DNA from: Cantharellus purpuraceus
Taxonomy: Eukaryota; Basidiomycota; Agaricomycetes; Cantharellales; Hydnaceae
Direction of reading: 5' to 3'
Length of the DNA stretch: 64,000 nt
NCBI GenBank assembly: GCA_025174535.1
Contig: JALBUN010000001.1
Span: 2,294,001 to 2,358,000, forward strand
The translations under genes were made by a program, and so were the position numbers. The notes under the pieces are model-generated. The model saw only the letters and a program-made list of their open reading frames with translations, had not been told where the DNA came from and ran no database searches. Below are positions 839 through 63,145 of the stretch, one piece after another (position 1 is the first letter of the stretch; each line of letters starts with the position of its first letter).

Positions 839-897
839 GGTGGGTTGGGTAGTGATCGATGATGGTTTTACTGAGGAAGGGGAAGTGGATTCACTGG

Positions 898-905: not shown

Positions 906-944
906 CAGTTAGTGGAATTTCGGCATGGATGAATTTGGTGGGCG

Positions 945-2570
945 CTAAGCTTCACTGTGCCTATTCTGCGGCTCTGAAATGTGTCCAATACCACGTGTTG
1001 GGTTCCTGCCAGCTGTCCAATCAAAGAGGACCTGTTTGGGAGGTTCTGTGAAGTTCTCAAAGCGTCTGAAGGGAAGAGCCGCATAGGTGGCTGCCGAAAT
1101 ACGCCTTGGGGCTTCAGGATTTTCCTGATGGAAGTCTGCAATGCGCCTTCTAGCCCCACTGGCATCCTTAGCTGGGATCCAGAGGTCGTCAGCAGCTCCA
1201 TAGCCCTTCCAACGCACCAGGTATTCCAGTCTTCCTCGGAAAACTCTGCTGTCAAGGATCTTCTCAACTTCGTATTCCTGTACTCCATCTCGAATGACTG
1301 GAGGTGGTGGAGGAGATGACTGGCGTTCAGGGATGGGATCCTTTTCATAAGGACGGAGTAAGACAACAGAGAACACTGGATGAGTGCGGCCAAAGATTGG
1401 GGGAAGTCGTAGGCCATAGGCATTTCGTGAGACCACTTTATTAATCACATACGGTCCTAACCATTTGTGATCAAGTTTCTTGGTTGGACGGGTGGTGGTG
1501 ATATTTTGTGCATTGAGCCAGACCTTGTCACCAAGTTTGTATACTGGGGCTGCTTGCCGATGGGCATCATAGAATCGTGCCATATCATCTGCTGCCTTTT
1601 CCAGGGCGGAGCGAGCCTCAGTGGTGGCTGTCTCCATACGCTCAGTGAATTCTTCCAGTGCTTCAAGTCGTGTCTCTCGGATTGGCTCTAACCCAAGCCT
1701 TGGGTGTTGGCCTGTATCAAGCATGAAGGGGGTTGATTGTGTGGAGGAGTGGATGCGGTTGTTGTATGTGAATTCGGCAAGAGGAACCCACTCAATCCAG
1801 TCATCCTGGCGCTGATTGACGAAAAGCCTCAAGTATTGTTCAATTTCTTGATTGACCCTTTCCGTCTGACCATCGGTTTGTGGATGATATGCTGTGGATG
1901 CTGCAACCTTGATCCCCAAAAGCTTATTGAGCTCGCGCATAAATTGAGAGACAAACTGGGTGCCACGGTCACTGATGATCTCCTCAGGAAGGCCGTGGTG
2001 TTTCCACACATGGTCTCGGAAAAGTCGTGCAACTCCTATGGAGTTGATGTCAGAGGTGGTAGGGATAACATGTGCTCGTTTGGAAAGACGGTCCACAACG
2101 ACAAGGAGTGCATCATAGCCATGGCTGATGGGTAGTTCTACAATAAGGTCAACAGATATCACTTGCCACCTCCGATCTGGGACACGATTAGGCAGGAGTT
2201 TACCCATAGGAGGAGCAGGGAAAGTTTTTGTCCGATTGCAGAGGTCACATCCCTTGACGTATTTGGCAATGTATCGTCCAAATCCAGGCCACCAGTAGCT
2301 GCGGGATACAAGTTCTGTTGTTCTCCAGCGACCAGGGTGACCTGTAATGTGAGTATCGTGGTGTGCCCTTACAATGTCATGGCGCAATTTTGGGTCAAGA
2401 GGGACATATACCTTGCCACGATAGAGGACGAGTCCATTCTCCTCGGTCCATTCCTGTCCTCGTAAATTCAGAGAGGGGCCAAGTTCCTTAAGAGCCTTTA
2501 CAACCTTTTCATCTCTGTTGGTGCAATTCCGCACACGTTCCAGGAATATGTCTCCTTCTCCTGTGATCAT
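945..2570 (-). CDS. element A pol, integrase and chromodomain segment
   Basis: About 540 aa forming the C-terminal part of the polyprotein. The integrase zinc finger is visible (HDTHITGHPG then YVKGCDLCNRT, the HHCC type). The catalytic core keeps its three acids, in SVDLIV, SDRGTQF and TDGQTERVNQ. A chromodomain follows near the end (EYEVEKILDSR, LEYLVRWKGYG, LWIPA), which marks the element as a chromovirus and should direct insertion to modified histones. The segment is out of frame with RT/RNase H because of a one-base loss in a G run near 2672-2676. With that base it would join the upstream frame before residue 1, so its apparent ATG is not a true start. Confidence 0.9.
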   Translation of the reverse strand: MITGEGDIFLERVRNCTNRDEKVVKALKELGPSLNLRGQEWTEENGLVLYRGKVYVPLDPKLRHDIVRAHHDTHITGHPGRWRTTELVSRSYWWPGFGRYIAKYVKGCDLCNRTKTFPAPPMGKLLPNRVPDRRWQVISVDLIVELPISHGYDALLVVVDRLSKRAHVIPTTSDINSIGVARLFRDHVWKHHGLPEEIISDRGTQFVSQFMRELNKLLGIKVAASTAYHPQTDGQTERVNQEIEQYLRLFVNQRQDDWIEWVPLAEFTYNNRIHSSTQSTPFMLDTGQHPRLGLEPIRETRLEALEEFTERMETATTEARSALEKAADDMARFYDAHRQAAPVYKLGDKVWLNAQNITTTRPTKKLDHKWLGPYVINKVVSRNAYGLRLPPIFGRTHPVFSVVLLRPYEKDPIPERQSSPPPPPVIRDGVQEYEVEKILDSRVFRGRLEYLVRWKGYGAADDLWIPAKDASGARRRIADFHQENPEAPRRISAATYAALPFRRFENFTEPPKQVLFDWTAGRNPTRGIGHISEPQNRHSEA

Positions 2571-3817
2571 TTGAGCTTCTGGCCCTGGATAGGTGGATGT
2601 CGCATCGATGTGGAACAGCTCAGGGCCAAGAAGAATCTGGTTCTGGTTATCTTCCTCCCCCGCTTATGATCTACACGTCGTGAGAGGGCATCAGGTTTGG
2701 CTGAATGTCGTCCAGGACGGTGGATCAGTTCAAAGTCAAATCGAGAAAGGTATAGTGACCAGCGAGCTTGTCGACGATTGAGATTTTGAGCTGTACGGAA
2801 ATATGTGAGGTTTTGATGGTCGTTAAGGATTTCAATCTTGTATTTGGTCCCTTCCAAGATGTGGCGCCATTCTTCTAGTCCACGGATGACTGAGAGCAAT
2901 TCCTTATCATGGATGGCATAGTTGCGCTCTGCATCTGAAAGGCTCTTGGATACAAAACCTACCGGCCTCCATTTCTCATCGTCACAGAGTTGAGATAGAA
3001 CAGCACCTGTTGCATATGCTGAAGCATCTGTCTCTAGTCGAAAATGCTTGGTTTGATCTGGGAGGACAAGGATTGGAGTTGACGTGACAAGCTGCTTGAG
3101 TTTATCAAAGGCTTCTTGTTCTGGGCCATCAGGTATCCAAGACCACTGTGTATCTGCCTTTGTTAACCGATTCAGAGGCTTTGCGATATGTGAGAAGTCC
3201 TCAATGAAGCGACGATAGAAATTGATGAAACCCAGGAAGGATTTGACTTCTGTCACATTGCGCGGTGTGGGCCAGTCCCTGACTCCAGCCACCTTAACTG
3301 GGTCCATAGCTACCTGTCCCTGTGAGAGAATCAATCCAAGATAATCTACCTTCTGTTGCGAGAAAAGGCATTTCTCTGGTTTGAGGTACAGGTGGTTGGC
3401 CCAAAGAATTTCAAGGACAGATTGCACGATCGTGTGGTGTTGTTCTAGGGATTCAGTGAAAATGAGGATGTCGTCCATGAACACTACCATAGTGCCATCG
3501 TCAATGAGCTCCTTGAAAATGCCATTCATCATCGTCTGAAAGGTTGCTGGGCTGTTTGTGAGACCAAAGAACATGACCAGGGGTTCAAATAGACCACGAT
3601 TGGTTCGAAAGGCTGCCTTCCACTCATCGCCCTCTTTAATACGCACATTGTTATATCCCCATCGGATGTCAAGCTTGGTAAAGTACTTGGCATTGGCTGC
3701 GGCAATTTTATTCATGATGTCTGGTACCAGGGGTAGTGGGTAGGCGTTCTTGATTGTGATATCATTCAGCTTGCGGTAGTCTTGCACAAAACGAAGATTA
3801 CCGTCCTTCTTCTTCAC
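2567..3817 (-). CDS. element A pol, reverse transcriptase and RNase H segment
   Basis: About 416 aa. RT begins with KKKDGNLRFVQDYRKLN and keeps the polymerase site in the form VVFMDDILIF. RNase H shows its first acid in RLETDASAYATG and the NYAIHDKELLSVI block. The apparent ATG lies inside RT: the real frame enters from the protease segment through a run now of five Ts (near 3827-3831) that should be six. At the other end the frame runs off into nonsense after the G-run deletion, giving a false C-terminus. The polymerase and RNase H residues visible are intact. Confidence 0.9.
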   Translation of the reverse strand: MKKKDGNLRFVQDYRKLNDITIKNAYPLPLVPDIMNKIAAANAKYFTKLDIRWGYNNVRIKEGDEWKAAFRTNRGLFEPLVMFFGLTNSPATFQTMMNGIFKELIDDGTMVVFMDDILIFTESLEQHHTIVQSVLEILWANHLYLKPEKCLFSQQKVDYLGLILSQGQVAMDPVKVAGVRDWPTPRNVTEVKSFLGFINFYRRFIEDFSHIAKPLNRLTKADTQWSWIPDGPEQEAFDKLKQLVTSTPILVLPDQTKHFRLETDASAYATGAVLSQLCDDEKWRPVGFVSKSLSDAERNYAIHDKELLSVIRGLEEWRHILEGTKYKIEILNDHQNLTYFRTAQNLNRRQARWSLYLSRFDFELIHRPGRHSAKPDALSRRVDHKRGRKITRTRFFLALSCSTSMRHPPIQGQKLK

Positions 3818-4842
3818 AAAAAGACAGGGGATGCCATGGGTGACTTGGAAGGGCGTATACGATGATTCCGTAGGTTCTCCTCAAGGAATGCGTCCAACTC
3901 CTTCTGCTCATTTGGGGACATTGGATAGACCTTTGTGCTGAAGGGTTGTGCTCCTGGAGTGAGTTCAATAGCGTGGTCCCACAGTTTTCGAGGTGGAAGT
4001 TGGTCAAAGGACTCCTTTGCAAAAACATCCTTAAATCCCCAGTACGCCTTTGGGACAATCTCCTCAAAGGTTTTGACTGGAGTGGATTCTGCAGCCTTCT
4101 GTGCGAGCTGTTGAGAAACTGTTGAACCAGCATAGATATTCTCCAAGTCTTCTTCTACAAAGATAACAAATGTTCGGTCTCCCTCGTATTGGGGTTGCCC
4201 GTGTGAGTTCTTGCCATTTGAAGGAGTTGTACCAAGCGAATGCTCTTTGTGTTCTGGTACTTCTCCACATGAATCAGGGCAGCGAGTCATCTGTACCTTT
4301 CCTGTACGCCAGTCTACCTCTGGGTTGTGCTTCACAAGCCAGGTGTGCCAAACAATTATGCCAAAGGTTCCCAGGCTTGTGACTGAAAATGTGGCACGTT
4401 CAGTATGGGTCCCATATGTGCAGATGAGATCGACTTCTTCCTTGATTGAACCTGCTTCATTTGGGGTCCCATCAATGTTATAAACAGGTATGGCACGTGG
4501 TAGAGGGCGTGTTCGAAGTTTCTCTGCTTTGACATATTCTGCATCAATGAACATTCCTGTAGCACCACTATCGAGGAGTGCATCCACAGCTAGAGGGTAT
4601 CCAGTGTCTACCGAGTGGATTTTCATGGGAATTCTTGTACATCGACGGATGTCTGCAGATCGAAGGTAGAGACGAGGAGGGTCATCATGTTTAGCTGAAA
4701 GTTGAGAAGGGTTTTCAGGCATGGCTGTTTTGGTTTCAGTCTGATGGACAAGGGAGTGTGCGTGTAACATATCGCTTGTGAGCCCTACAGTACATGATTC
4801 AAGAACTGAAAACCGGTTTGTCAGGCAGGGCATGCTCTTCAC
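3814..4842 (-). CDS. element A pol, protease and start of RT
   Basis: About 340 aa in the -1 frame relative to gag. The aspartic protease site is visible as DALLDSGATGMFID. The segment ends in the first RT motif (SPMASPVFL) where a T-run deletion creates a stop. The frame overlaps the gag stop: the gag TGA at 4841-4839 shares bases with a GTG at 4842-4840. This suggests that pol is made by -1 frameshifting or reinitiation, although GTG as a start is unlikely in a fungus and the first ATG is four codons later. Confidence 0.85.
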   Translation of the reverse strand: MKSMPCLTNRFSVLESCTVGLTSDMLHAHSLVHQTETKTAMPENPSQLSAKHDDPPRLYLRSADIRRCTRIPMKIHSVDTGYPLAVDALLDSGATGMFIDAEYVKAEKLRTRPLPRAIPVYNIDGTPNEAGSIKEEVDLICTYGTHTERATFSVTSLGTFGIIVWHTWLVKHNPEVDWRTGKVQMTRCPDSCGEVPEHKEHSLGTTPSNGKNSHGQPQYEGDRTFVIFVEEDLENIYAGSTVSQQLAQKAAESTPVKTFEEIVPKAYWGFKDVFAKESFDQLPPRKLWDHAIELTPGAQPFSTKVYPMSPNEQKELDAFLEENLRNHRIRPSKSPMASPVFL

Positions 4843-5981
4843 TGCTGACTGGCCTGAAAATCCTGCTTCTCCTCTTGCTTTGGAATTACTGCCTTCTGCG
4901 CTTCTTCCTTGGCCTTCAGTGCAGCTGCTACTGACTCTGATATCATGCCTGCAATTGCTGTTTGTGTGAGATCAGCTCGGATACGTTCCTTGCGTGGTTC
5001 AGGGCATGCTGGGGATATATGGCCACGCTTTCCACAGTTATAGCACGTCCGAGTCTCAGTGCGATGGCGGTTGGAGTCAATATCCATAGGTGCAGCACCA
5101 TTAGAGGTTGCCAAGGTAGTTGGTACAGAGATGACTGGAGTGCTGTGAGGGCGGGATGGGGTAGAGCGGGCAGGAGTGAGGGAAGTCTGAGCACGTCTCA
5201 CTTCTAGAAGACGACGGTGGTTGCGGTCAATTTGACAGGCCGCTTCCTTCCATGCCTTGAGATCGGATGGGAGGGATGGCTGTGCATGGATCTTGTCAAG
5301 AATCATTGCAGGGAGCCCTCGGGCATAGGCATCTTCCAGTGCTGCATCATTAAACCCAGTCCTTCCTGCTAGTATCTCAAACTGTGCCGTGTATTCATCC
5401 GCTGACATGCCAGGTGTCATCCTAAGATCGTGTAGCTTTGTTCGTGCTGTTCGAGAGCGGTCAGGGTCCCCAAAAGCGTTCTCCACTTGCTTAATGAATT
5501 CCTCCAAGGTGGAGAGCGGTGAGGTCCTGTCAATGACTGCCTGTGTCTCATTGTGCACCCATACTTCAGCAGAACCTCCTGTCATAAAAGAGAGGGCATA
5601 GAGGATCTTGGTCCGCTCATCTGGGAAAGATGTAGGCTGGACTGCAATGGCAAGCCTGATAGAGCGAATGAAACCTTCCGTCTCTGCACGATCTCCATTG
5701 AATTTGGCTGGTTCAGCTGCCCTTATTGGGCGAACGGATGACGATGTAGGAGAAGGTGTGGGAAATGAGGTGGTCTGAGAGATGGTCTGTGCTGCAGCGA
5801 TGGCAGCAGCAGTGGCAGCATCTGCTAGGTTGTTCTGGACATTGGCGAACTGGCTTTGGAGGTGCTGGTTCTGGAGTTGCAGCTGCTGGAGCTGCTGCGC
5901 CTGGGTGTTGAACAAAGCTCGCAGAAAGCCACCACTTTCACCTAGAGTGTCCCAATAGGCTTCAGGGAGCTGATCGGTCAT
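4839..5981 (-). CDS. element A gag
   Basis: Intact 380-aa Gag from ATG at 5981 (MTDQLPEAYWDTLGE), 83 bp inside the 5' LTR. The N-terminal third has a glutamine-rich coiled-coil stretch (QAQQLQQLQLQNQHLQ), the middle is the retrotransposon capsid fold (AEPAKFNGDRAETEGFI, LEEFIKQVENAFGDPDRS), and the C-terminal part has one CCHC zinc knuckle (CYNCGKRGHISPACPEP) for RNA packaging. The length is normal for fungal chromoviruses and there are no internal stops. Confidence 0.92.
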   Translation of the reverse strand: MTDQLPEAYWDTLGESGGFLRALFNTQAQQLQQLQLQNQHLQSQFANVQNNLADAATAAAIAAAQTISQTTSFPTPSPTSSSVRPIRAAEPAKFNGDRAETEGFIRSIRLAIAVQPTSFPDERTKILYALSFMTGGSAEVWVHNETQAVIDRTSPLSTLEEFIKQVENAFGDPDRSRTARTKLHDLRMTPGMSADEYTAQFEILAGRTGFNDAALEDAYARGLPAMILDKIHAQPSLPSDLKAWKEAACQIDRNHRRLLEVRRAQTSLTPARSTPSRPHSTPVISVPTTLATSNGAAPMDIDSNRHRTETRTCYNCGKRGHISPACPEPRKERIRADLTQTAIAGMISESVAAALKAKEEAQKAVIPKQEEKQDFQASQQ

Positions 5982-6063
5982 GGTATCGGTGAAGTAGTTG
6001 ATAGGGAAAGTGTTATGGGGTGTGGGGTCGTCTTATGAGCTTGATCTTCTGTGAGGGCGACGC

Positions 6064-6411
6064 TGATGACGAGGCCACAACAACAAGATACTCAATAAGT
6101 GAGAGCCGATAAGAAATAATGCCAGCTGGTACAGCGGATATCCTCAGTCTATACAGCTGTTTCTGATAAATACATGGCACTTACCTGGTACAGCGGATAT
6201 CCTCAGAGATCAAGCTGAGGGGATCACACTGCACCAAGGCGAGTCTTTATACTAAATGATGGAGACGGATAGGAGAACCAAGATAGGGGAGGAAAGATAG
6301 GGGAAGTGATAGGGGCAATGAAATAGGGGAGACGCACCCTGACAGGCTGCGCTGATAGGGGTGTCAAGAGAAAATACTAAAAATAGAATATGACTTATTT
6401 GAACCCTGACA
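6064..6411 (-). repeat. 5' LTR of element A
   Basis: 348 bp with TG...CA ends in sense (TGTCAGGG ... TCATCA). Its right edge joins the interrupted gypsy C coding sequence. No tRNA-type primer site was recognised in the bases that follow it in sense (GCGTCGCCCTC), so priming may be of another kind. Confidence 0.93.
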
Positions 6412-6657
6412 CCTATGTTCCACATCAGTCTCATTTGACCATATGTGCCGAATGATGAGATGAGATTCCCAAAACAGGAAGCAAAGTCATTTTATGACTT
6501 TGGGAACGACAATGAGCAAGAGTGGCTTGTCAATGAAATCATTGCTCATCAATGGATAAATAAAGAACTTGAATTTCAAGTTCTATGGACGTTGGGAGAC
6601 ATCACCTGGGAACCTTACATGTCGTGTAAGGACCTAGAAGCTCTAGACAATATTTAG
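6412..6657 (+). pseudogene. gypsy C pol 3' end with chromodomain (copy C0)
   Basis: The last about 80 codons of a family C pol, cut at its 5' side by element A. After a frame disruption the chromodomain reads EWLVNEIIAHQWINKELEFQ and continues with VLWTLGDITWEPYMSCKDL, ending at TAG 6655-6657. The same region occurs at 62950-63145, where it is interrupted instead by LTR G2. Two perfect inverted repeats lie inside the coding sequence (6482-6502 and 6564-6584), a hallmark of this family. Confidence 0.85.
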
Positions 6658-7060
6658 AGCTTCAAGGGGTGACTTGAGCACAAGAACCACCTCATAGATG
6701 GTAGTTCTCAGAGAGACGGAGCCCCAAATATCTAATGGGGCTCAAGGGGGAGAAGTGAAACTACCAAGAATAAAGGTAGCTGCTAGTGGGATGCAACAAG
6801 GAGCTACCATCAATGATGGTAGCTCAATGAGAGGAGGAGGAACTACCTCAATTAATGGTAATTCCTAGATGAGGATAGAGCTGCCATAACAACAGGCAGC
6901 TCAATAGCAGTAAAAACTGCTCCCATAGGGAGCAGTTCACCGTCATGCTACTCATAGTAGCATGAAAGGGGTAAGTGATAATTAATTGCATTACACCCAC
7001 ATGACATAGTCACTGGAAAAATTCTCAATAAAGAATTTTTGAGCTCAGCTGTAAAAGGCT
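6658..7060 (+). repeat. hairpin array between pol and ORF3 of gypsy C
   Basis: Non-coding stretch with a series of separate perfect inverted repeats: 6719-6743 (arms of 7), 6801-6825 (GAGCTACCATC, arms of 11), 6878-6902 (arms of 8), 6915-6937 (AACTGCTCCC, arms of 10), 6943-6965 (TCATGCTACT, arms of 10), 7017-7040 (arms of 9). Loops are mostly 3-11 nt and each repeat has a different arm sequence. There is no long ORF here. Confidence 0.85.
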
Positions 7061-7072
7061 AGCGGTGCTTCT

Positions 7073-7835
7073 TTGAACCACCACAACCTCCCCTCCATCA
7101 AAATGTCATCTCCCAGAAGGGAGGTGATGGATGCTCAAGATGAGCATCCAATGGAAGTTGAACAAACTTTCACAGCGGCAGCACTGGCAACAAGTGCTGC
7201 AGATATGATCAGAGGTCATCAAGATGAGATGATCTGGAAAATCAGCAGATGGCATGGTGGTGCTGTCATCTATCACCCTCATGGGTGTAACAAGTGTGAC
7301 ACATGTATTGCACTCAATCGAGGCCCAAATGGGGGCTGACTATATCTTTCCACCAATGTGGTGGAAAGAGCATTAAGAGTTGCGTGGCCATGACTTATAC
7401 ATGACATTGAAGATGATGTCATGACACCTTATCATAAAGACTATAATAAGATGTATAAAGATAACTCAGACTTGTTCATGCAGGTCCAAGAACTCAAAGG
7501 ACTTCTTGACAATGAGAAGTCCAAAGTAACTCATCTCAGAGATGAGTTAAAAACACTGAAGGAGGCTGCAGATAGAGCACCTTCTACATTCAAAACCAAG
7601 CTCACGACAGTGTGCTTGGCCCCAGTAGCATCACTATTGTGTGCTATGGCAGGCAAATCATTGCCTGCCATTATGCCTTCACAACCTGTGGCTTCATTGT
7701 CATGGGAAATGATCAACATCACCAAAGAGGATGATCTCCTAAGCAAACTGCCTTGGGTCAACCCTCAAGGGTTCGAGGGTCAAAATTGGGACGATGCTCT
7801 TTGTACCCTGTCATGGGGTACAAACTTAATATGAA
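7073..7835 (+). pseudogene. gypsy C ORF3, N-terminal part (broken)
   Basis: Unrecognised protein downstream of pol in family C. One frame gives 88 aa from ATG 7073 (MSSPRREVMDAQDEHPMEVE from the internal Met, later CNKCDTCIALNRGPNGG with a CxxC pair). The next open block from 7421 gives a charged coiled coil (LFMQVQELKGLLDNEKSKVT) followed by a hydrophobic region. Near 7790 the sequence switches to family C protease-RT linker, so the C-terminal part is lost; a plausible C-terminal part is the ORF at 12161-12808. Several mini inverted repeats run through the coding sequence. Function unknown. Confidence 0.5.
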
Positions 7836-8740
7836 GAAGGAGTATTGGTGTGAATAAATGATGCCAAGGGGGTAACTCTAAACATGAGCTACCCACAACA
7901 CAGTCCTTCCCAAAAGAAGGACTAGACTCAGTAAAGGACCCCCCAATGGAGGATCCAAATAAGAGCATGAGGCAAATAGCTTCATCTCATAAGGATCAAC
8001 CACCTACATGGCTGATCAGTTGAGAGAAAAGAAAAGTACGCTGACCTATTCAGCAGCATACCCTTAGAACTTTCCCCATCTAGGAAAGTTAACCACAAGA
8101 TTAATCTTGTGGATCCTGACAAGTGAATACATTATCGCTTGCCTAAGTGCCCAGAACACTACTGAGCAGAACTTTCAGAGAAAGTTCTGCAATACACCAC
8201 TGCTAAGTGGTGGGTATCAGCTACAGCCTGACAGGCCATACCAATGCTATGCATTCCCAAGAAAAATGGGAAGCTCCGCACTGTGTTCAACTTGCACAAA
8301 CAGAATGACAATACAGTGAAGGACATAATGCCCTTCTCCAATCAGGACAACATCAGACACGATGTTGCCCGCTGTACATATCAATCAACTCAATATGTCT
8401 GAGGTGTACGAACAGATATGCGTCAGGCTGACGGATATACCCAAGATGGCATTTGCAACCGTCTTGGGGACATTTGTCAGCCAGGTCATGCAGCAAGGGG
8501 ACTGTAATGTCCCCTCGACATTTCAGCGGCTCATGACCACCATCTTCTGAGAATATATCAGAAGATTTGTCCATGTATAGTTCCTGAGCAAGGATAAGAT
8601 TGATCTATACTCAATGAGTATGGATTGCCGAGAGTGGAGATGACCTAGGTCATACCATGAAGTCCAACATTTCCTTGGACTAGTGCAGTATCTGGCACAC
8701 TATATGCCAGATATAACTGCATACACAACCCCATTATGGG
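7836..8740 (+). pseudogene. gypsy C protease-RT linker and RT remnant (copy C0)
   Basis: Matches 60053-60960 closely. Readable RT pieces include KVNHKINLVDPDK, PMLCIPKKNGKLRTVFNLH and a QDGICNRLGDIC region. Several TGA stops interrupt it, at least some where an arginine CGA is expected (for example after DPDK). The catalytic core is missing, and the sequence ends near 8740 at a junction where orientation reverses. Confidence 0.8.
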
Positions 8741-9017
8741 ACCAGTAGGTAGTCATAGTCATTGAATTTTGGTAATGGACCCATAAAGTCCATACCTATT
8801 GATTGCCAGGGCTGTTCAGGTACTGGCAAGCTATGAAGAAGCCCTATGGGCTTCTTCATACTGTCTTTATTCATTTGGCACTTTGCACACAAAGTGCAGA
8901 ATGATTTGACATCAGTGGTCATGCCTGGCCACCAGTACAACCAGGTGCCAATATTGAAGCCCATTGATGTCAATAACCCCAATTCTATTCGAGTTATTAC
9001 TGACAGCTCCAAGACTG
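8741..9017 (-). pseudogene. gypsy C integrase fragment, then RNase H scrap
   Basis: 8741-8945 on the minus strand is integrase: YWWPGMTTDVKSFCTLCAKC and MDFMGPLPKFNDYDYLLV, matching the plus-strand copy at 62020-62230. From about 8950 the text flips to plus-strand RNase H (ILKPIDVNNPNSIRVITD, as at 61070-61110). Neither is functional. The first flip lies next to a short palindrome (CCCATTATGGG). Confidence 0.75.
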
Positions 9018-9400
9018 TATTATGCTCTTCATTGGTGGGGACTTCTTCAGTTCCCATCATGATTCAGCCTGGGCCATTGAAGTCCAGGCATATTCCTAGC
9101 TTTCATAGGAATGGGGTACCGAGTATTACATCGTAATACTCAACATTGGTGACATCAAAGTATTCTTCAATGTCTCGACTACCATGATTTATGGTACTCC
9201 TGCTCCCAATGCACACTAATTGCAGTGCAATGGGTTGCTCTAGAACAAAGGTTTTCATACCTGTTGCACACATGAATTCAGGGGATATCATTATCCCCTC
9301 GCTCCCACTGTCTAATAGACAATGAGCAAGTGTTCCACCAATCTCCCAATACCTGGAGATTGTTTTACATATGAATTATCACAAACACTGGGATGAAGCA
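9018..9400 (-). pseudogene. gypsy C protease fragment
   Basis: Minus-strand retropepsin. The active site reads HCLLDSGSEGIMISPEF and the C-terminal part EYYDVILGTPFL. It is closely related to the copy at 53200-53520. It is joined backwards to RNase H at 9017 and ends before unit B. No intact ORF. Confidence 0.8.
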
Positions 9401-10989: not shown

Positions 10990-12160
10990 CAGAGTTTGTG
11001 CACTTCAGCCAAAAGCAGCCACAGAAGGTTCTGACACCTTCCTGGACCTTCCACAAGGTTCCCTGGCCTTCTCTTTCCTTCCAGGGGCTTCCCTAAGCAC
11101 CAGGAATGTTCTCTGATTAGTTACATAAGCTAGATAGTCCATGTATATAAAAAGGGCTGCAACAGCAGTGCAAAAATAAGATCTTTTTACCACACACACA
11201 CAGCAGTGTCTACTCAAGCATTGAGTAATCATCACATAAGCATCACGCTTATATCAGCTACTCTTAGTGTATATTAACTTTGATTGACTCTCGGAGAAGC
11301 CAGAAGTTATTATATTACAAGTGCAGCAGGCTCTAATATTAATCAAACTCGGAGAAGAGGTTAATACGGAGTAACTGATTAGTGATTAACACACTACAAG
11401 CCCACTCGGAGTAGTAACTTGAAGTGTATTAATTGTTATTCATTGATCAAGAACCCTACACGTGTAATTGAGACTCTGAGGTTAGTCAAATTATCACGTA
11501 TCGGGCTATTGGTTATAATCAAGAATCTTGCACGTTTAATTGAGACTCTGAGGTTAGTCAGGTTAATACGTACTAGGCTATTGATTGGTCAAGAATACTG
11601 CACGTTTAATTGAGACTCTGAGGTTAGTCAGGTTAACACGTACTTTGCTATTGATTGGTTGGTTCAATTGTGGGCATTTCAATAAATCAACAACACAGTC
11701 TATTAACTCACCTCTTTGAGACAAGATTAATATCCCTTGATTGTTGATTCTATCATGGATACAGTGAATACGCTTGTTCAGAAGGAAGTGTTCAAGTGCG
11801 TATCTATCTTTTTACATTGAAGGGATTATTGTTAGCTTTAATCCACTCAACCCGCGGTACTAAGGCACTAGGTTACTTCCCCCTTTGAAGTATCTGAACC
11901 CTTGAACGCCTGTCAATCTTTGACTTTACATTGCATCAGCAGTAAAGCGTGAACTATATGTGACAAGCATAAATCTCTATTGCTTCACTTCCTGTGGCAA
12001 CATTGATTGTGATTGTTCACCGGAGTATAATTTCTTAATTGGGTTCTCCGTTAAAATAGTTTCAAGCTTATTGCTAGCCTTGAAAGGTCATACATCCTCA
12101 GGCTAAACTTAGATTGTGATTAATACCACAGTTTAGGTCGAAGTTCACGGTTCCAAAACA
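10990..12160 (+). repeat. LTR of family G2 (5' limit uncertain)
   Basis: Long LTR ending GGTTCCAAAACA at 12160, with a TATA box (TATATAAAAAG, 11144-11154). Its last about 840 bp match 63146-64000 in reverse. Three tandem units of 70-72 bp lie at about 11441-11660, each with the core GAGACTCTGAGGTTAGTCA. Inserted in gypsy C ORF3, which resumes at 12161. The 5' end could not be fixed; it may be hidden by unit B. Confidence 0.7.
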
Positions 12161-12808
12161 AATGGGGTCCCCCCAGCCATCTGACAGGAGTTGGATGGTA
12201 CTATGAACTTGTCCAATGTGGACAAATGGATGTGGCTGCAAAAGGCCACTCCTAAGAAGGGTTCTTCTGTGTTCAAGAAGAACCTCTGGACTATGTTCCA
12301 GAATCCCAGCCATGGGAATTATTGACCAGTGGTCAAAAGTTCTCACCAACTCTTGGTGACACCTTTCACATTTCAATCACTGGAGCATATGATTGGGGGA
12401 ATTGCTCCTGAACTAGAGCTTGCACTCTGGTTTGGGCAATCAGGAGGCATCACCCCCGATTGTGCTGCTATCTTAGAGGAGTTTGCTAAACACATCGCCT
12501 CTGGAGCAGCTTTTAACCAGCCTGCCAGGGTTGGTAAGCAGGGGCAGGAGACTCAAGGAGTCTCCCAAGCAGCTCATAAATCTGCTAAATGCTCTCTTGC
12601 TGAGTGTTTAGGTCATGATCAACTTAATTGTGACCTTGATCAGGATGCTGCAGTAGCAATTGCATCCTCCTCATCCATTCAAGTGGATGAGGATACCGTA
12701 ATGACATCAGGGATGACCGAGAGCCATCCCCCTCTGGAGTTGTATGATCAAGACAATCATATGGACACTGACTCATTGGAGCAGCTTCATAAGGAGCTGT
12801 ATGATTAA
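12161..12808 (+). pseudogene. gypsy C ORF3, C-terminal part
   Basis: Open from 12329 to 12808 (159 aa); comparison with the minus copy at 38006-38623 shows that the true frame also covers 12161-12328 with shifts (TPKKGSSVFKKNLWTMFQNP). Conserved blocks: ELxLALWFGxSGGITP, HIASGAAFNQPARVGK, a SSSSIQVDED acidic stretch, and LxEQLHKELYD at the end. Three copies in the window share them. No known domain recognised. It ends just before a purine tract and LTR J, so it is the last gene of family C. Perfect inverted repeats sit inside the coding region (12260-12284, 12547-12565, 12669-12692). Confidence 0.6.
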
Positions 12809-12837: not shown

Positions 12838-12850
12838 AAAAAGGGGAGGG
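12838..12850 (+). other. polypurine tract before LTR J
   Basis: AAAAAGGGGAGGG directly precedes the TG of LTR J. The same arrangement is present on the minus strand at 37270 and, with one substitution, at 38006. This ties LTR J to the C-family ORF3. Confidence 0.8.
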
Positions 12851-13122
12851 TGTAAGTACCCAAGGTACTTACTTACTATAGCATATAATTATAATTAATG
12901 TATGCAGCATTCCATTAAGGAATGCTGTCTTCTTGGTAGATATATACGCCCATAGGGTGCATATGTATAGTTATTATGTAAGCCAGTGGACCCAAGTACA
13001 CGTGTGGGTCCACATATAGTAGACAGACCTTAGTAAACAACCACACTGTACAGCACACATCACATAACCAATATACTTGGTTGAGTTCTGTGTAACAGTG
13101 TGAAATAAGGCACCAATTTACA
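12851..13122 (+). repeat. LTR J (3' LTR of gypsy C)
   Basis: 272 bp, TGTAAGTACC ... TTTACA. Contains four perfect inverted repeats: 12852-12872, 12905-12927 (CAGCATTCC), 12986-13013 (GTGGACCCA) and a degenerate one near 12950. Copies: 36997-37269 and 37730-38005 on minus, 39575-39854 on plus. Confidence 0.85.
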
Positions 13123-13391
13123 TATCTGAACCCTTGAAAACCCATCAATCTTGACTTTACATTGCATCAGCAGTAAAGCATGAACTACACATGATGAGCA
13201 TATATCTCTATTGCTTCACTTCCTGTGGCAATATAGATTGTGATTGTTCACCAGAGTATAATTTCTTAATTGGGTTCTCTGTTAAAATAGTTTCAAGCTT
13301 ATTGCTAGCCTTGAAAAGTCATACATCCTCAGGCTAAACTTAGATTGTGATTAACACCACAGTTTAGGTTGAAGTTCACATTTCCAAAACA
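13123..13391 (+). repeat. 3' fragment of an LTR of family G2
   Basis: Matches 11890-12160 with about ten differences, ending TTTCCAAAACA. Its 5' part is cut by LTR J. The next 134 bp (13392-13525) are the 3' flank of taf5. Confidence 0.75.
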
Positions 13392-36996: not shown

Positions 36997-37269
36997 TGTA
37001 AGGTTGGACTTGGTTCACACTGACACAGAACTCAACCAAGATATATTGGTTGTGCTATGTGCAACAGTGGTGTAGTAAAATCTAAGTTACTCTAACTACA
37101 CGTGGACCCACACATATACTTGGGTCCACTTGATTATATAATAACTGTACATATGCACTCTATGGGTGCATATATCTATCAAGAAAACAGCATTCCTTAA
37201 GGGAATGCTGTATATACAAGTATATATTATATATTATTCTATAGTAAGTAAGTACCTAGGGTATTTACA
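36997..37269 (-). repeat. LTR J (3' LTR of a gypsy C copy)
   Basis: 273 bp; starts TGTAAATACC at 37269 in sense, directly after a purine tract at 37270-37282, and ends at 36997 in gypsy H gag. It keeps the LTR hairpins in altered form. Confidence 0.82.
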
Positions 37270-37729
37270 CCCTCCCCTTTTTGAATAAGGCATGACCTCA
37301 TTCACCACTCAATTGTACAGCTCCTTATAGAGCTATTCAGACAAATCAGTGTCCATATGATCATCTTGATCATATGGCTCTGGAGGGGGATGGCTTTCAG
37401 TCATCCCCATCATTGTCATAGTATCCTCATCCACTTGAATGGATGAGGAGGAGGCAACCACTAACACAATGTCTCAATCAAGGTCATGATCAAGCTGGTT
37501 GTGAACTAAATGCTCAGCAAGGGAGTGTTTAGCAGCTTTCTGGGCTGCTTGAGAGGCTCCTAGAGCCTCTTGTTTTTGCTTACCAACCCTGGCAGGTTGG
37601 TTAAATGCCCTTCCAGAGGCGATGTGATTTGCAAACACCTCTCTAGTATGATGGCATGATTGGGGTGATACCTCCCATTCACCCAAGCCAGATTGTGAGC
37701 TTCAGTTCAGTATGTTCTTTGGGGGGATG
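37270..37729 (-). pseudogene. gypsy C ORF3 C-terminal fragment
   Basis: Third copy of the ORF3 end: SGRAFNQPARVGK, SLAEHLVHNQLDHDLD, then a stop and ASSSSIQVDEDTM, ending LYKELYN. Interrupted on its 5' side at 37730 by another LTR J, so one C element landed in another. Confidence 0.75.
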
Positions 37730-38005
37730 TGTAAATGCATGTCTTAGTTCACACTGTTGCACAGAACTCAACCAAGTATATTGGTTGGGCAATGTGTGTA
37801 CAGTGTGGTAGTTAACTAAGTTCTATCTACTACATGTGGACCAACACATGTACTTGGGTCCACTGGCTTATATAATACTATACATATGCACCCTATGGGT
37901 GCATATATCTACCAAGAAGACAGCATTCCTTAATGGAAAGCTGCATACATTAATTATGACTATATAACTACATACTATAGTAAGTAAGTACCCTGGGTAC
38001 TTACA
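37730..38005 (-). repeat. LTR J (3' LTR of a second gypsy C copy)
   Basis: 276 bp, TGTAAGTACCC in sense from 38005 to TTTACA at 37730. It follows a C-family ORF3 and purine tract. Confidence 0.82.
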
Positions 38006-38628
38006 CCCTTCCCTTTTTGAATGAGACACAATCTCATTCAATACTTCTTAATCATACAGCTTCTTATGAAGCTGTTCCGACAAGTTGGTGTCCATATGGT
38101 CATCTTGTTCATATGGTTCTGGAAGGGGATGGCTCTCAGTTGTCCCTGATGTGGTTGCAGTATCCTCATCCACTTGAATGGATGAGGAGGATGCAATTGC
38201 TACTGCAGCATCCCGATCAAATTCACGATTAAGTTGATTGTGACCTAAATGCTCAGCAAGAGAGTGTTTAGCAGCTTTATGAGCTGCTTGGAAGACTCCC
38301 TGAGTCTCCTGCTTCACTTACCAACCCTAGCAGGCTGGTTAAAAGCTGCTCCAGAGGCGATGCATTTAGCAAACTCCTCTATTATAGCAGCGTGATTGGG
38401 GGTGATGCCTCCTGATCCCCCAAACCAGAGCACAAGCTCTAATTCAGTATGTTCTTTGAGGGAGTGATTCCCCCAATCATATGCTCCAGTGACTGAAGCG
38501 TGAAAGGTGTCACCAAGAGTTGGTGAGAACTTTTGACCACTGGTCAATAATCCCCAGTGGCTGGGATTCTGGAACATAGTCCGGAGGTTCTTCTTGAATG
38601 CAGCAGAACCCTTCTTGGGAGTGGCCTT
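38006..38628 (-). pseudogene. gypsy C ORF3 C-terminal part, best-preserved copy
   Basis: Two overlapping frames give MFQNPSHWGLLTSGQKFSPT, then ELVLWFGGSGGITPNHAAII, SGAAFNQPARVGK, SLAEHLGHNQLN, SSSSIQVDED and LSEQLHKKLYD. One frameshift at 38314-38317. The 5' side continues past LTR E at 39406-39490. It allows correction of the frame in the copy at 12161. Confidence 0.7.
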
Positions 38629-39405: not shown

Positions 39406-39574
39406 GCCTTTTGCAGCCACATCCAGATGTCCATATTGGAAGTTCATAGTACCATCCAACTCCTGTCAGATGGCTGGGGGGACCCCATTAGGGTTTACTT
39501 GCCACCCCTGTATGAGGGCAAGTGTGTCTACCTGTGTGGTTGGTAGAGTGACAATAAGACTTGTGTTATCAGTG

Positions 39575-39854
39575 TGTAAGTACCCAAGGTACTTACTTAC
39601 TATAGTATGTAGTTAGATAGTTATAATTAGTGTATGCAGCATTCCATTAAGGAATGCTGTCTTCTTGATAGATATATGCACCCATAGGGTGCATATGTAT
39701 AGCTATTATGTAAGCCAGTGGACCCAAGTACACATGTGGGTCCACATATAGCAGATAGAAAAACTTAGTAACCACCACACTGTACAGCACATTGCCCAAC
39801 CAATAACTTGGTTGAGTTCTGTGCAACAGTGTGAACTAAGACACCCAATTAACA
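39575..39854 (+). repeat. 5' LTR (LTR J) of the large gypsy C element
   Basis: 280 bp, TGTAAGTACCC ... ATTAACA. It is not preceded by a purine tract but is followed by leader sequence and a gag start, so it is read as a 5' LTR. The element it begins continues, with nested insertions, to at least 63145. Confidence 0.75.
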
Positions 39855-40052
39855 CTTTTTGAACTTCCAAAGGAAGAATCAATTGATTCTTCCTCATTAT
39901 TGAAGTTTTCTAGTCAATACTAGAAAGCTGGCTGTTGCTGGTGTACAGACATATACCAACCCCCCCAGTCACTCATATAAGTGAGCAACTAGTAGACTAA
40001 CTTAATTAGCCTACAAAGATAAAAGAAAGAAAGGAGTCATCATAATGATGAC
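39855..40052 (+). other. gypsy C leader with inverted repeats
   Basis: Untranslated leader between the LTR and gag. Inverted repeats include GGAAGAATC/GATTCTTCC (about 39873-39894), TTTCTAGT/ACTAGAAA and TCATCAT/ATGATGA (near 40036-40050). No primer site recognised. Confidence 0.6.
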
Positions 40053-40578
40053 TGTTATGACTATATTCATTAATGCCCAGATCCCCATCCAATCCACTCA
40101 GATCCCTGCGCATATGAAATCTATACTCCATTGAAACCGCCGCGTCTCCATTTACCTGTCCGATTGTCACTGCTGATTCCACCCATCTGCCTCCGGTTCC
40201 GATTGATGCATCAGCATCACCATAGGAACCCAGACATCCATCCCCATCGGACTCGGACATACTCATGTAAGGCTGTCGGCCTCGGAGACCCATCACCGGA
40301 GTAATTATTATTAGATTTCAAATATGTATTTAAGTTGTCCGACTGGGGACTTCATTCCCCAGTTTGAATATCGAATCACGCCTAGTTCCTAAGTCCAATC
40401 CTAACTCTCTAAGTCGTACTCCATCTCCAAAATCTCGGACACTGGTATTAGTGAGGGCGCAGCACATAAGCTGAAGCCAAGTCCTGTTCCGACCCCCACG
40501 ATGTACACAACTCCTTCTCCGACTCTGACCCGACCTCCAACCCAATCTCTGACCTCCAATTGGACCTAGTGCGTAACA
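40053..40578 (-). repeat. solo LTR F in gypsy C leader
   Basis: 526 bp; direct repeat ATGAC at 40048-40052 and 40579-40583. It lies exactly at the gag ATG of family C. Confidence 0.93.
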
Positions 40579-53025: not shown

Positions 53026-54875
53026 ACAAGACAAAGCTATTCACCTCATGCTCTTATTTGGATCATCCATTGGGTGTCCTTTACTGAGTCTAGCCCTTCT
53101 TTTAGGAAGGACTGCATTGTGGGTAGCTCATGTTTAGAGTTACCCCCTTGGCATCATTTATTCATGCCAATACTCCTTCATATTGAGTTTATACCCTGTG
53201 ATGGGGTACGAAGAGCATTGGTATTATGCTCTCCATTGGTGGGGACTTCTTCAGTTCCCATCATGATTTGGCCTGGGCCATTAAAGTCCAAGCATATTCC
53301 TAGCTTTCATAGGAATGGGGTACCGAGTATTACATCGTAATACTCAATGTTGGTGACATCGAAGTATTCTTCAATGTCCCAACTACCAAACTTTATGGTA
53401 GTGTAAGTACCATAATTTATGGTACTCCTACTCCCAATGCACGCTAATTGCAGTGTGATGGGTTGCTCTAGTGTGAAGGTTTTCATACCTGTCGCGCATG
53501 TGAATTCAGGGGATATCATTACCCAGAGATTGTTTTATTATTTATGCGTGGCCTATTGGGTCATGCTGTCAACTTCTGTCAGCTCCTATGATTATACATA
53601 GGTTCAGTTGATTTGTCAATGCTGACAGCAGCTATATGCAGCTGTTGTGATTCCCTGCTTCTTGGGAATCTTATTGCACTACAGAAACACACTGCATAGG
53701 TGTGTTTTGGTGGAATTCAATCATTGGGTCAAATTTGTATTGCATTAGAGCAATACATTGGCATAGCCTCCTTTTCAGGGGTGTCATCTTGGTCGTCTCA
53801 TTCGTATGGGGCAACCTCCTCATCCCATTCATCTGCTACTTCTATAGCTGACAATTTTTCGTCTAGATGGTCCTTGGGATCATCCATTGCTTCTTCATGT
53901 TCTCCCTCTATCAGGGAGAATCTGTCTACATTGTCCTCCACTATGTGTGAGGACACATCCTTTCAGACCACAGCTGACCTTACGTTGCCCTTTAGTTTGG
54001 GGCAGTTGGGTTGCATGTGACCTGTCTGGCCACATTTGTAGCACACAATGTTACTGGTAACATTGTTCAATCGATCACCACTCGCATGTGCTGGTGGCTT
54101 CAATTGATAATTACCTTTAAAGGGGTAATTGTTGGAATTGGACCTGGAGCTTCCATTATGGGATTCCAACCTCAACACACTCACTTGTCATGAGTGTGTG
54201 TTGGGAGCCATATACACTTGTCCATGGGGCATGGGTCAACTCCCTGTATTCATCATACCAGTAGTTCTATTGACTACTGGCCTATGGTTATGGAGGACAC
54301 ATTAGTCGCATTCTCCAGGCATCACATACCATGGTGGTATTGCGTCACTTCCTCTATCATTTGAGCAGTTTCATACAACTGCTCGATACTGCTAAATTCA
54401 GCATTGAAGCCCTTCTTAAGGACTTCTTGTCTCAGAGGTTCATGCAGTTATGAACCTCTTCCTGTACATGTATGCATCCGGCAGCATTATCATGCGACCT
54501 GCATACTTATCTAGGTTGTTCATTAATTCATGAACAGTCCTTTGACCCTGTATTACTGAGTCAAATTTATTTGACACATGATGATGCATCAGGTTGTGTA
54601 GGAATCTATGCTGCAATCCTTGGATTGCAGTTTCCAGGGTCCAGTCTTGGACTGCCCTTATCGTAGTGTTCTACATTCCTGTAGAACCATTCCTGGGCCT
54701 TGCCTTTAAGGTGAGTGCCTAAGTACAATAGCTGAAACTTTGCACTTGATGGCCCTAGTAGATTATTCATCTTCAGCCATTGTAGCATACCTGCTCATGG
54801 CGGGTGTCTCCTGAAAGGCCTGCTGCTCATATGCACTGATAACTGTTCAGCACATGTCACAACTGTCAGTTTAAT
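53026..54875 (-). pseudogene. gypsy C gag and protease (inverted part of the large C element)
   Basis: From 54875 down: capsid (MLQWLKMNNLLGPSSAKFQL, THLKGKAQEWFYRNV), zinc knuckle (VCYKCGQTGHMQPNCPKLKG at about 54050), acidic linker, protease (53519-53307: MISPEFTCATGMKTFTLEQP, EYYDVILGTPFL) and the protease-RT linker ending at 53026, where gypsy D starts. RT of the same element resumes on the other strand at 60053. Stops are frequent. Inverted repeats such as AGTACCATAA/TTATGGTACT (near 53407-53426) are present. Confidence 0.82.
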
Positions 54876-60052: not shown

Positions 60053-60960
60053 GAGGATCAACTGCCTACATGGCTGATCAAGATCCCTCAGTTGAGGGAT
60101 CAATGGAAAGAAAAGTATGCTGACCTATTTGGCACCATACCATTAGAACTTTCCCCATTTAGGGAAATTAACCACAAGATTAATCTTGTGGATCCTGACA
60201 AGTGAATACATTATTGCTTGCCTAAGTGTCCAGAGCACTACCAAGCAGAACTTTCAGAGAAAGTCCTGTGATACACCACTGCTAAATGGTGGGTATCAGC
60301 TACAGCCTGGCAGGCTGTACCAATGCTATGCATTCGCAAGAAAAATGGGAAGCTCCACACTGTGTTCAACTTGTGCGAACAGAATGATAAATACGGTGAA
60401 GGATGTAACACCCTTCCCTGATCAGGACAACATCAGACACAATGTTGCCTGCTGTACATATAGATCTAAACTTGATATGTCTGAGGTGTATGAACAGATA
60501 TGCATCAGACCAACAGATATACCCAAGACGGCATTTGCAACCATCTTGGGGACATTTGTCAGTCAAGTCATGCAGCAAGGGGACTGCAATGCCCCCTCAA
60601 CATTTCAGCGGCTCATGACTGCCATCTTCCAAGAATATATTTGAAGATTCATCCATGTATATCTGGACAACATATTTGTGTACTCTCATACTATACAAGA
60701 GCATGAACATCACCTAGAGATGGTGTTCACCAAGCTCAGGAAAGCACATATGTTCCTGAGCAAGGATAAGATTGATCTATACTCAATGAGTATGGATTGC
60801 CTTGGTCATCTAATAGATGACCAAGGCGTGCAAGCAGACACTGATAAAATGCAGCGAATATGAGAGTGGAGACAACCTAGGTCATACCACAAAGTCCAAC
60901 ATTTTCTTGGACTAGTGCAGTATCTGGTGCACTATATGTCAGACATAACTGCATACACAA
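60053..60960 (+). pseudogene. gypsy C reverse transcriptase
   Basis: Readable with stops: PLELSPFREINHKINLVDPD, LCIRKKNGKLHTVFNL, TAFATILGTFVSQVMQQG, then YLDNIFVYSHTIQEHEHH, where the usual YLDD has become YLDN, and SMDCLGHLIDDQGVQADTDK. TGA stops at 60203 and 60642 fit CGA decay. The 14-bp-arm inverted repeat 60799-60827 (GCCTTGGTCATCTA) lies within CLGHLIDDQG. Confidence 0.82.
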
Positions 60961-61533
60961 CCCCTTTATCGGGTTGTGCTCGTAATAATTGTCCATTCTT
61001 ATGGATGCTGCTGCTGGAGAAATGCTTTGAAAGCATCAAGCTCCTAGCATGTAGGGCTCTAATATTGAAGCCCATCAATGTGAATAACCCCAATACTATT
61101 TGGGTTATTACTGATGGCTCCAAGACTGGAGTCAGAGCTGTCTATGGACAAGGAAAAGATTGGCAGACCTGTTGGCCTGCCAGATTCCTATCCAAGAAAT
61201 TTAGTGCTGCACAACAGCACTATAAGACCCACAAGCACGAGACTATAGCTGTGCTCAAAGCCCTAATGAGATGGGAAGATAAGCTACTAGGACAAAAATT
61301 CATCCTAGTAACTGACCACAAGGGTCTCGAATACTTTGAGACCCAAAAGAACCTGTCTCCTAGACAGATTAGGTGGTGGGAGTTCTTATCCCGTTTCAAC
61401 TTCACCACCCTGCATATAGACAGGGTAGAGAACAAAGTAGCGGATTGTCTATCATGCTACTATGCTGATGACTCCCCAACAGAGTCATCCCAACTACATC
61501 TACATGAGCGCAGATGTACGTCTCAACCCTGAA
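60961..61533 (+). pseudogene. gypsy C RNase H
   Basis: Open from 60915 to 61532: ILKPINVNNPNTIWVITDGS (first acid), ARFLSKKFSAAQQHYKTHKH, ETIAVLKALMRWEDKLLGQK, VTDHKGLEYFETQKNLSPRQ. Inverted repeats at 61202-61222, 61285-61310 and 61322-61344. Confidence 0.85.
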
Positions 61534-61979
61534 GGAGAACTGCTCCCCACAGAACAGTTTGTTGAGATCAGGACAGCAGCAGTCACCTTCAGATGACTGC
61601 TGGAGAAAAAAGAAAACAGAGTGCTAGAAGCTGAAGCACTCAATGTTCAAACAGAATTATTGAACGATGATTCTAATTCCTCTAAAGAAATAAAGGATGT
61701 TGGAGTGATGTCATCAGATGATGACAGAACACCATTGCGATCCCATGTTGAGCATGGGATCAACCTCATGCAGATTGTATGAGGTGCATATAGAAAGGAT
61801 ACTGTCCTTTCTAAGGTGCTGAAAGCACCTAAAGAGAATGCATGATTTGGCATGCGTGATGGTCTAATATGGACCAAAAATATATACAAATGCAATGTCG
61901 TCTGTATACCCTGCTCAGTGTTCCTGAAGGGGAGGGAGGGGGCTGGTTGAGATAATAATCAACCATGTGCACCAAGTAG
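61534..61979 (+). pseudogene. gypsy C RNase H-integrase linker
   Basis: Mostly broken frames between RNase H and integrase, dense in inverted repeats (61577-61602 CAGCAGTCA; CCCATG..CATGGG near 61741; GAAAGGA..TCCTTTC near 61793; GGTGCT..AGCACC near 61817). No separate gene. Confidence 0.6.
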
Positions 61980-63145
61980 TTGCCATTTTGGTCAACTAAA
62001 GACCGTGAATTACATTCAACGGTTGTACTGGTGGCCAGGCATGACCACCAATGTCAAATCATTCTGCACTTCATGTGCTCAGTGCCAAATGAATAAAGAC
62101 AGTACGAAGAAACCCACAGGGCTTCTTCATAGCTTACCAGTACTGGAATGGCCCTGGCAATCGATAGGTATGGACTTTATGGGTCCATTACCAAAATTGA
62201 ATGACTATGACTACCTACTGGTAGTCATAGATCACTTCACATTGCAGGTACATATAATACCTACAAACATGCATGTAACAGCAAAAGGAGTAGCATGGCT
62301 ATTCCTTAAAGAAGTTGTACACCTTCATGGCGTACCAGACTTGATTGTGTCTGATCGAGATTCAAAATTCATGTCTATCTTTTGGTGTGAACTACAGCGG
62401 ATAATGGGAGTGAAACTCCTCATATCCACAGTGTTCCATCTGCAAATGGATGGAGTAATGGAACAAGTGAATCATTCCATTGGCCAATTACTTTGTACCA
62501 TTGTATGAAGTGATCAGAAGGATTGGGCACACAAGTGTCCAATGGTGGAGTTTGCGCTAAACTCCAACATAAGCTCAACAACGGGGTTTACTCCGTTTGA
62601 GCTTAACCATGGGTATATGCCTAGAATAGGCATGCCCATTAACAATGACACCAAGTTCAAGGGTGTCAAACAATTTGCACAGCAGGCCCAAATAAACCTG
62701 CTAGTGGTGCACAACACAATTATAGAAAGTCACATTGTTCAGACATTTCATGCCAATAAGAAATGTTGGGAAGGTTCAACCTTCCAGACAGGTGACAAAG
62801 TCTACCTCTCAACAAAAAACTTGACTCTACCTAAGGGTAGAACCAGCAAACTAGTGCCCAAGTATATTGGGCCCTATAAAGTAATCAAAGCCCATAATAA
62901 AGCTTCGACAGTGACACTGGAACTGCCACCAGAACTAGTAGGCATATTATGCCTACGTTCTACATCAGTCTCATTCGACCATATGTGCCAAATTATGAGA
63001 TGAGATTCCCAAAATGGGAAGTGAAGGCATTTTACGACTTTGGGAATGATGACAAGCAGGAGTGGCTCATTGATGAAATCATCACTCATTGATGGATAAG
63101 TGATAAAGAACTTGAATTTCAAGTTCTATGGACATTGGGAGACAT
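61980..63145 (+). pseudogene. gypsy C integrase and start of chromodomain
   Basis: Zinc-finger end (LYWWPGMTTNVKSFCTSCAQ), catalytic core with its acids (IGMDFMGPLPK, IVSDRDSKFMSIFW, MDGVMEQVNHSIG), a TGA at 62506, then MVEFALNSNISSTTGFTPFE and the GPY-like region KLVPKYIGPYKVIKAH. The chromodomain starts near 63055 and is cut by LTR G2 at 63146. Inverted repeats 62205-62230 and 62769-62785 lie in coding sequence. Confidence 0.85.

Follow-up and report, generated by a model that had tools for sequence, protein, structure and literature searches.

Genomes of RNA viruses can be organised by genome-scale ordered RNA structure, which folds well above shuffled sequences, and where structure of a sense RNA is selected, stems may be long and may contain wobble pairs and bulges. 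Complementary perfect stems have usually been taken as a sign of selection on RNA. Work on microRNA and rRNA loci indicated that template switching is able to create hairpins and also to perfect them, and in the relevant passages loop inversion is expected to give such a process its strongest support (PMC8794818). The same passages describe rRNA loop inversions tied to stem correction as extremely rare. Among LTR retrotransposons, the plant Sireviruses, of the Ty1/copia type, are described in passages of two papers as carrying recurring similar palindromic motifs in the LTR and in other non-coding DNA (PMC10760457, PMC2829016). The literature searched, which comprised title listings and some passages, yielded no hairpin-saturated gypsy element. 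Here we describe the saturation by perfect palindromes, real and strong, of a Ty3/gypsy retrotransposon, family C, broken copies of which lie in the window, i.e., the whole stretch of 64,000 nt that was analysed. Since its very strong palindromy comes without wobble or covariation and with flipped loops, it permits a direct comparison of selection with an origin by mutation.

Family C and its parts in the window

Judged by its domains, family C is a Ty3/gypsy-type LTR retrotransposon. Pfam matches comprise RNase H (PF17917, PF17919), the integrase zinc domain (PF17921), SH3_Tf2-1 (PF24626) and a zinc knuckle. The RT_RNaseH match reaches 1.9e-26 and is followed, 3′ of RNase H, by Integrase_H2C2 at 4.3e-15; the integrase core is weak (rve 2e-4, below cut-off), and RVT_1 scores 29.5 bits in the broken window copy, just under the cut-off of 29.6. 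The order of reverse transcriptase (RT) and RNase H, then integrase, is that of Ty3/gypsy elements, and so are the TG...CA LTR and the purine tract, both read by eye, the LTR being repeated in the window. The segment 6439-6654 looks by eye like the chromodomain that chromoviruses have at the integrase end, without a Pfam match.

All window copies are broken and rearranged. A first stretch at 6412..9375, with 28 perfect hairpins (arm of at least 8, loop of at most 10), joins the end of pol and the 3′ region (6412-7835, + strand) to an RT part (8028-8579, + strand) and then to integrase and protease parts on the − strand. Within this 3′ region, about ten hairpins follow each other at a spacing of 24-45 bases in 6613-6965, and several of them are variants of one theme, GAGCTACC...GGTAGCTC, whose differences come in pairs, in the manner of an old array. 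The stretch adjoins, at 6412, an element of family A (1-6411), whose 347-bp ends (1-347 and 6065-6411) are 100% identical, which points to a recent insertion.

A second site holds the hairpin-rich end of a frame downstream of pol (12161..12808, + strand; open at 12326-12805, no Pfam match), the purine tract AAAAAGGGGAGGG (12838-12850, + strand) and a C LTR, TGTAAG...TTTACA (12851-13122, + strand), with a 9-bp hairpin from 12852. What the first-pass annotation named LTR J is LTR only in part, at 12851-13122. Two tandem J units (LTR plus frame end), 79% alike, lie on the − strand at 37009..38462. Another C LTR (39571-39864, + strand) is followed, as far as the adjacent element, by sequence rich in hairpins, and the two together (39571..40053, + strand) contain 7 of them. 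The gag part with its zinc knuckle and a protease part are found at 53220..54687 on the − strand (13 hairpins), and RT, RNase H, integrase and an SH3-like part at 60053..63145 on the + strand (18 hairpins, many within codons). The latter stretch includes the longest hairpin of the window (60799..60827, arm of 14, loop of 1), inside RT codons, and a hairpin with an arm of 11 and a loop of 4 (62205..62230) in the integrase codons for YDYLLVVI, residues that are kept in relatives.

The frame or frames between pol and the 3′ LTR (7055-7831 and 12161-12808) have no Pfam match above cut-off; a DUF6175 match of 0.0037 to 7394-7831 is below its own. One of these frames looks coiled-coil by eye. A 270-bp repeat of another family (11891-12160, 13123-13391 and 63146-63415) adjoins C exactly at 12160/12161, at 13122/13123, where the C LTR ends, and at 63145/63146. 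Elsewhere, 32564-32809 is a near-perfect short tandem repeat with offsets of 60 and 120 bases.

Excess, form and decay of the hairpins

With arms of at least 8 and loops of at most 10, the window contains 96 perfect inverted repeats, compared with 10.7 ± 3.0 in 10 dinucleotide shuffles; a recount placed the start of 86 of the 96 in C stretches and that of the other 10 in other DNA. When maximal inverted repeats (arm of at least 8, loop of at most 12, overlaps kept) were counted, the C stretches (10,480 nt) gave 87 against 1.8 in local shuffles (Poisson P ~1e-111), whereas the rest of the window (50,754 nt), which harbours several other LTR families, gave 11 against 7.6 (Poisson P 0.15). The excess over shuffles and over other families, proposed from a first reading and with reserve as to the latter, thus holds within the window. 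All nine hairpins quoted at that time are present exactly where they had been placed, seven with the arm length then given; two arms had been underestimated, as the hairpin at 6801-6825 has an arm of 12 and a loop of 1 (quoted as 11 and 3), and the one quoted as 12669-12692 with an arm of 9 is 12668-12693, with an arm of 10 and a loop of 6. The stretch 36997-39575, also called hairpin-rich, is so only in part, with no hairpin between 38188 and 39576.

The excess extends to coding DNA, where 11 C frames, two of which may not be coding, hold 26 hairpins versus 1.83 under synonymous-codon shuffling within the frame; 9 frames of the other families hold 0 versus 1.61. Protein relatives were aligned in three sets (115, 120 and 120 sequences, being the best 120 of 296 for RNase H and the best 120 of 642 for the second integrase set); one of the relatives matches at 78% over 85% of the integrase query, another at 78% over 83% of the RNase H query. 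In the arms, 68 of 85 C residues fit the conserved columns, compared with 273 of 348 outside them (P 0.88). Arm residues match the relatives as often as others do, so the hairpins arose with the protein kept; no protein footprint of a block replacement of arms is seen.

The hairpins are short and simple in form. A search opened to loops of up to 60 showed no excess beyond loops of ~11, and most spans fall within 19-29 nt, centred on 21-26. Stems end abruptly: beyond their outer end, pairing is 19-30% at distances of 2-12 versus a background of 26%, and only 1 of 78 continues past a mismatch. Where stems are shared among copies, 369 of the 377 positions have a Watson-Crick pair as their most frequent one, none has G.T, 4 have A.C and 4 another pair. 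Folding of C exceeds that of shuffles, with a mean z of -3.57 for the sense and -3.20 for the antisense strand (48 windows), a difference of -0.37 ± 0.21, the corresponding values for the other families being -0.53 and -0.35 (45 windows). On the sense strand of the 3′ region and of the RNase H part, the loops are rich in A, a bias that the sequence outside the hairpins shows as well.

The host genome assembly searched (40.15 Mb, 50 contigs) is rich in family C, a first look having yielded 109 candidates for RT, 183 for the 3′ region, 152 for integrase and 466 for the LTR, 40 of each being scored. Contigs C1 (end), C35 and C37 carry the same C copies, identical in score, which suggests duplicated regions. 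Five copy alignments were built, of 33, 35, 29, 7 and 14 rows (at least 60% coverage of the segment, duplicates removed), those of RT being thin, with 7 and 14 rows including the reference. Hairpin density is kept in all five: averaged over copies, there are 11.3 hairpins per kb for the 3′ region, 8.4 for the LTR piece, 4.2 for integrase, and 5.8 and 6.7 for RT/RNase H. The copies have a median identity of 89-93% to that of the window, with one LTR copy as low as 78%. No closer sister family appeared among 150 scored of 1,065 candidates in the host genome, where identities drop from 55% and more in C copies to 37-43% in other families; likewise, none of the 54 + 66 pattern matches in viral contigs and prokaryote genome contigs was confirmed as DNA of a related element.

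Differences among C copies are mostly transitions, and in the aligned copies 35-40% of CpG cells have changed versus 2-12% in other contexts, a strong CpG decay from which family C would probably be methylated. The two arms do not covary among copies: at the 70 stem pairs that vary, their alleles are independent, with a mean phi of 0.006 ± 0.025. The first-pass annotation would have counted such a result against its own proposal; the test is little informative on the evolution of the source element, because transitions, chiefly those at CpG, make up most of the differences between copies. Dominated by transitions and CpG changes, and with independent arm alleles, the copies look like neutrally decaying descendants of a source in which the hairpins were already present. 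Two-sided stem changes, 103 of 105 of which were Watson-Crick (185 by transitions in a later count), were dropped as evidence, since a Watson-Crick pair hit by two transitions necessarily becomes another Watson-Crick pair and since a CpG on both arms changes in ~35-40% of cells.

Loop inversions between unchanged arms

A scan of the copies for clusters of transversions revealed loops that are reversed in place while the arms remain unchanged. In the 3′ region, the hairpin AACTGCTCCC-ATA-GGGAGCAGTT (6915..6937) has a TAT loop in 2 other aligned copies, and TGGATGCTCA-AGA-TGAGCATCCA (7128..7150) a TCT loop in one other copy. The same AGA to TCT change is found in one other copy of the RT hairpin GCAGAACTTTC-AGA-GAAAGTTCTGC (8166..8190), and in integrase the hairpin ATGCCTA-GAA-TAGGCAT (62617..62633) has a TTC loop in two other copies, a flip that, as read by eye, alters two integrase residues. 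The LTR hairpin ATATGCACCC-ATA-GGGTGCATAT (39674..39696) carries TAT in 4 aligned copies. A 4-base loop between shorter arms is also flipped, from GGGT to ACCC, in 2 copies.

Genome-wide, exact matches to the LTR hairpin number 101 in the unflipped and 35 in the flipped state (35/136), and the 3′-region hairpin at 6915..6937 has, with at most one mismatch, 53 matches to the unflipped pattern (48 of them with an ATA loop) and 7 to the flipped one, all counted without polarity and not all independent, as some lie in apparent duplicated regions (C1/C35/C37, C20). In the alignments, 9 of 289 triloop cells show an exact 3-base inversion, compared with 2 of 59,495 cells elsewhere (Fisher P 7e-20); by site, these are 4 of 11 loops and 2 of 2,592 windows elsewhere (Fisher P 3e-9), both non-triloop cases being in a single AT-rich, poorly aligned copy. 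A looser rule, which does not require an exact reverse of the commonest loop, gives 5 of 13 triloop hairpins and 10 of 352 cells clearly inverted; a sixth case at integrase column 810 (TCA/TGA), which would bring the raw count to 6 hairpins and 11 cells, was rejected because one substitution suffices. Transversions otherwise amount to 0.4-1.1% per site per copy. Among loops of 4-11 (48 hairpins, 1,086 cells), the one inversion match (2 cells) was rejected as an artefact of a near-palindromic loop, and no flip was accepted for loops of 5-11. An apparent inversion in L014 falls within a TG repeat and was dropped, and one-base loops, complemented in 3 of 137 cells and 2 of 6 hairpins, were too few for use.

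Copies with a flip in common are mostly no more alike than other pairs, so that flips recur or recombine; the exceptions are one pair near the 90th percentile of likeness (0.695 vs 0.700) and one of six LTR pairs above it (0.733 vs 0.719). Half-changed LTR loops were absent among the matches listed (~100 of 156 and of 273), which fits a flip in a single step. In the single readable pair, the LTR hairpins on either side of a C integrase (C48:2023403, exact, and C48:2034578, with one mismatch) lie on the same strand and are both flipped, in agreement with a flip that preceded insertion. Neighbouring LTR hairpins of unlike loop state also exist, as in C49:427319 (flipped) and C49:427936 (unflipped), and similarly at C5:1022083/1022682 and C15:986567/987166. 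These in-place loop inversions are the footprint of template switching.

Origin of the palindromes and comparison with known systems

We place at about even chances the explanation that strand switching during the copying of C writes its palindromes and perfects them, with the protein preserved. Copying of the family, most likely reverse transcription, would switch strands at short quasi-palindromes; each switch would copy one arm from the other strand and leave the arms perfectly complementary and, at tight loops, could invert the loop. A near-palindrome, once existing, would be perfected and maintained in this way and, as only protein-tolerated changes would survive in coding DNA, palindromes would accumulate there largely via synonymous change. 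A DNA-copying process is what would be expected from the lack of wobble, the abrupt stem ends and the similar folding of both strands. Because the excess is confined to C in the window, we infer that the switching agent is the reverse transcriptase of the element and not host replication. Presumably the arms were built by the same switching that flips the loops, though the flips alone do not prove a common cause. Of what template switching predicts, loop inversion between unchanged arms was found, in loops of 3 and one of 4, and one-step correction of several stem mismatches was not: none of the 11 two-sided stem changes that involve transversions gave a Watson-Crick pair, the arms being already perfect in the source, which left little correction to be observed. 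Also against strand switching are the near absence of flips in loops longer than 3, the lack of a protein footprint of arm replacement and its failure to explain why C alone should be affected.

The main rival is selection for perfect hairpins whose folding is required on both strands or in DNA; such hairpins might, for instance, keep sense and antisense transcripts apart, shield the RNA from RNA interference or structure single-stranded cDNA. We regard this rival as unlikely, though well ahead of the other alternatives. It would account for the absence of wobble (no G.T among the shared pairs), since only Watson-Crick pairs work on both strands, and it agrees with the strong folding both ways and with an excess in coding DNA that preserves the protein. 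However, the loop inversions require a strand-switch mechanism anyway, and the codon phase is not what synonymous choice would give. The phases 3-3, 2-2 and 1-1 occur as 4:9:7 for arms of at least 8 (n=20), 8:15:12 for arms of at least 7 (n=35) and 12:10:16 over all copies (38 centres), and sites writable by synonymous choice with an arm of 8 as 21:132:170 (n=323). The 3-3 phase is above the purely synonymous expectation of 21/323 (P 0.037 for 4/20, P 0.0015 for 8/35), and equal phases are compatible with the observed ones (P 0.15 for arms of at least 8, 0.13 for arms of at least 7). Codon phase lies between the synonymous-only and the unconstrained expectations and is not decisive; as the rarely writable phase is over-represented, the hairpins are not simply placed where synonyms permit. 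Switching and selection for hairpins may both act.

Selection for secondary structure of the sense RNA, as in packaging or genome-scale ordered structure, was the other route offered by the first-pass annotation next to template switching; the loop inversions back the latter, and we consider the former improbable. Strong sense-strand folding relative to the other families speaks for it, as do A-rich loops on that strand, though these are shared by the sequence outside the hairpins. The hairpins do not look like an ordinary selected sense-RNA structure because wobble is absent, bulges and extensions are scarce (1 of 78 stems) and the antisense strand folds almost equally. Furthermore, one-sided transition decay in stems leaves A.C 638 and G.T 540 times, so wobble is not favoured, and neither compensatory covariation among copies nor tolerated wobble was observed. 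A source of small RNAs was a further target of selection that the first-pass annotation proposed.

Similarly improbable is a host process of replication or repair that perfects and flips palindromes in resident copies, C being merely old or heavily palindromic. Chloroplast DNA, according to passages of one study, commonly has small inversions associated with hairpins (PMC12371153), and the unlike loop states of neighbouring LTR hairpins on C49, C5 and C15 would fit such events in place. Against this, no excess is seen in the other families that reside in the window, the arms of resident copies are uncorrected and decay independently on both sides, and the flipped pair on C48, the only readable one, fits a flip before insertion. 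Finally, chance, composition or the multiplication of one inserted repeat has next to no probability and is refuted for the family as a whole, since composition and codon shuffles exclude chance and the arms, as noted at first reading, are mostly unrelated and often within conserved codons, even if some adjacent hairpins of the 3′ region have the theme GAGCTACC...GGTAGCTC in common.

Returning to strand switching, a broader proposal, to which we give slightly less than even weight, is that a retroelement lineage continually rewrites its own genome into perfect short palindromes, hairpin saturation being a self-maintaining, heritable signature of copying and loop orientation a record of the switches. 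If the palindromes are indeed of mutational origin, family C would offer a natural system, high in copy number, for the study of template switching, and would caution that an excess of hairpins in a retroelement need not imply an RNA function.

Family C resembles ordinary fungal Ty3/gypsy elements in its RNase H, integrase zinc domain, SH3_Tf2-1, zinc knuckle and TG...CA LTR, and differs from them by the extra frame without Pfam match between pol and the 3′ LTR and by its palindrome saturation, the lack of which in ordinary elements is judged from the other families of the window only. With RNA viruses of ordered structure it shares folding well above shuffles along the element, but not their structural repertoire, having short, simple, perfect hairpins only, no wobble and little strand preference. 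Sireviruses, in the passages on them, are likewise LTR retrotransposons with hairpin-forming palindromes (PMC10760457, PMC2829016), whereas C has gypsy-type domains and, in place of a recurring palindromic motif, arms that differ and extend to coding DNA. As in the small inversions of chloroplasts in the passages cited (PMC12371153), a short stretch is inverted at a hairpin, theirs in organelle DNA and those of C in a nuclear retrotransposon, integrase codons included. Perfect arms, loop inversions and a presumed Watson-Crick correction are shared with the template-switch hairpins described in the relevant passages of PMC8794818. In contrast to those loci, C is a whole mobile element with several hairpins per kb and one loop flipped in 35 of 136 matches, a rate that does not simply follow their pattern, because the rRNA inversions with stem correction are described there as extremely rare.
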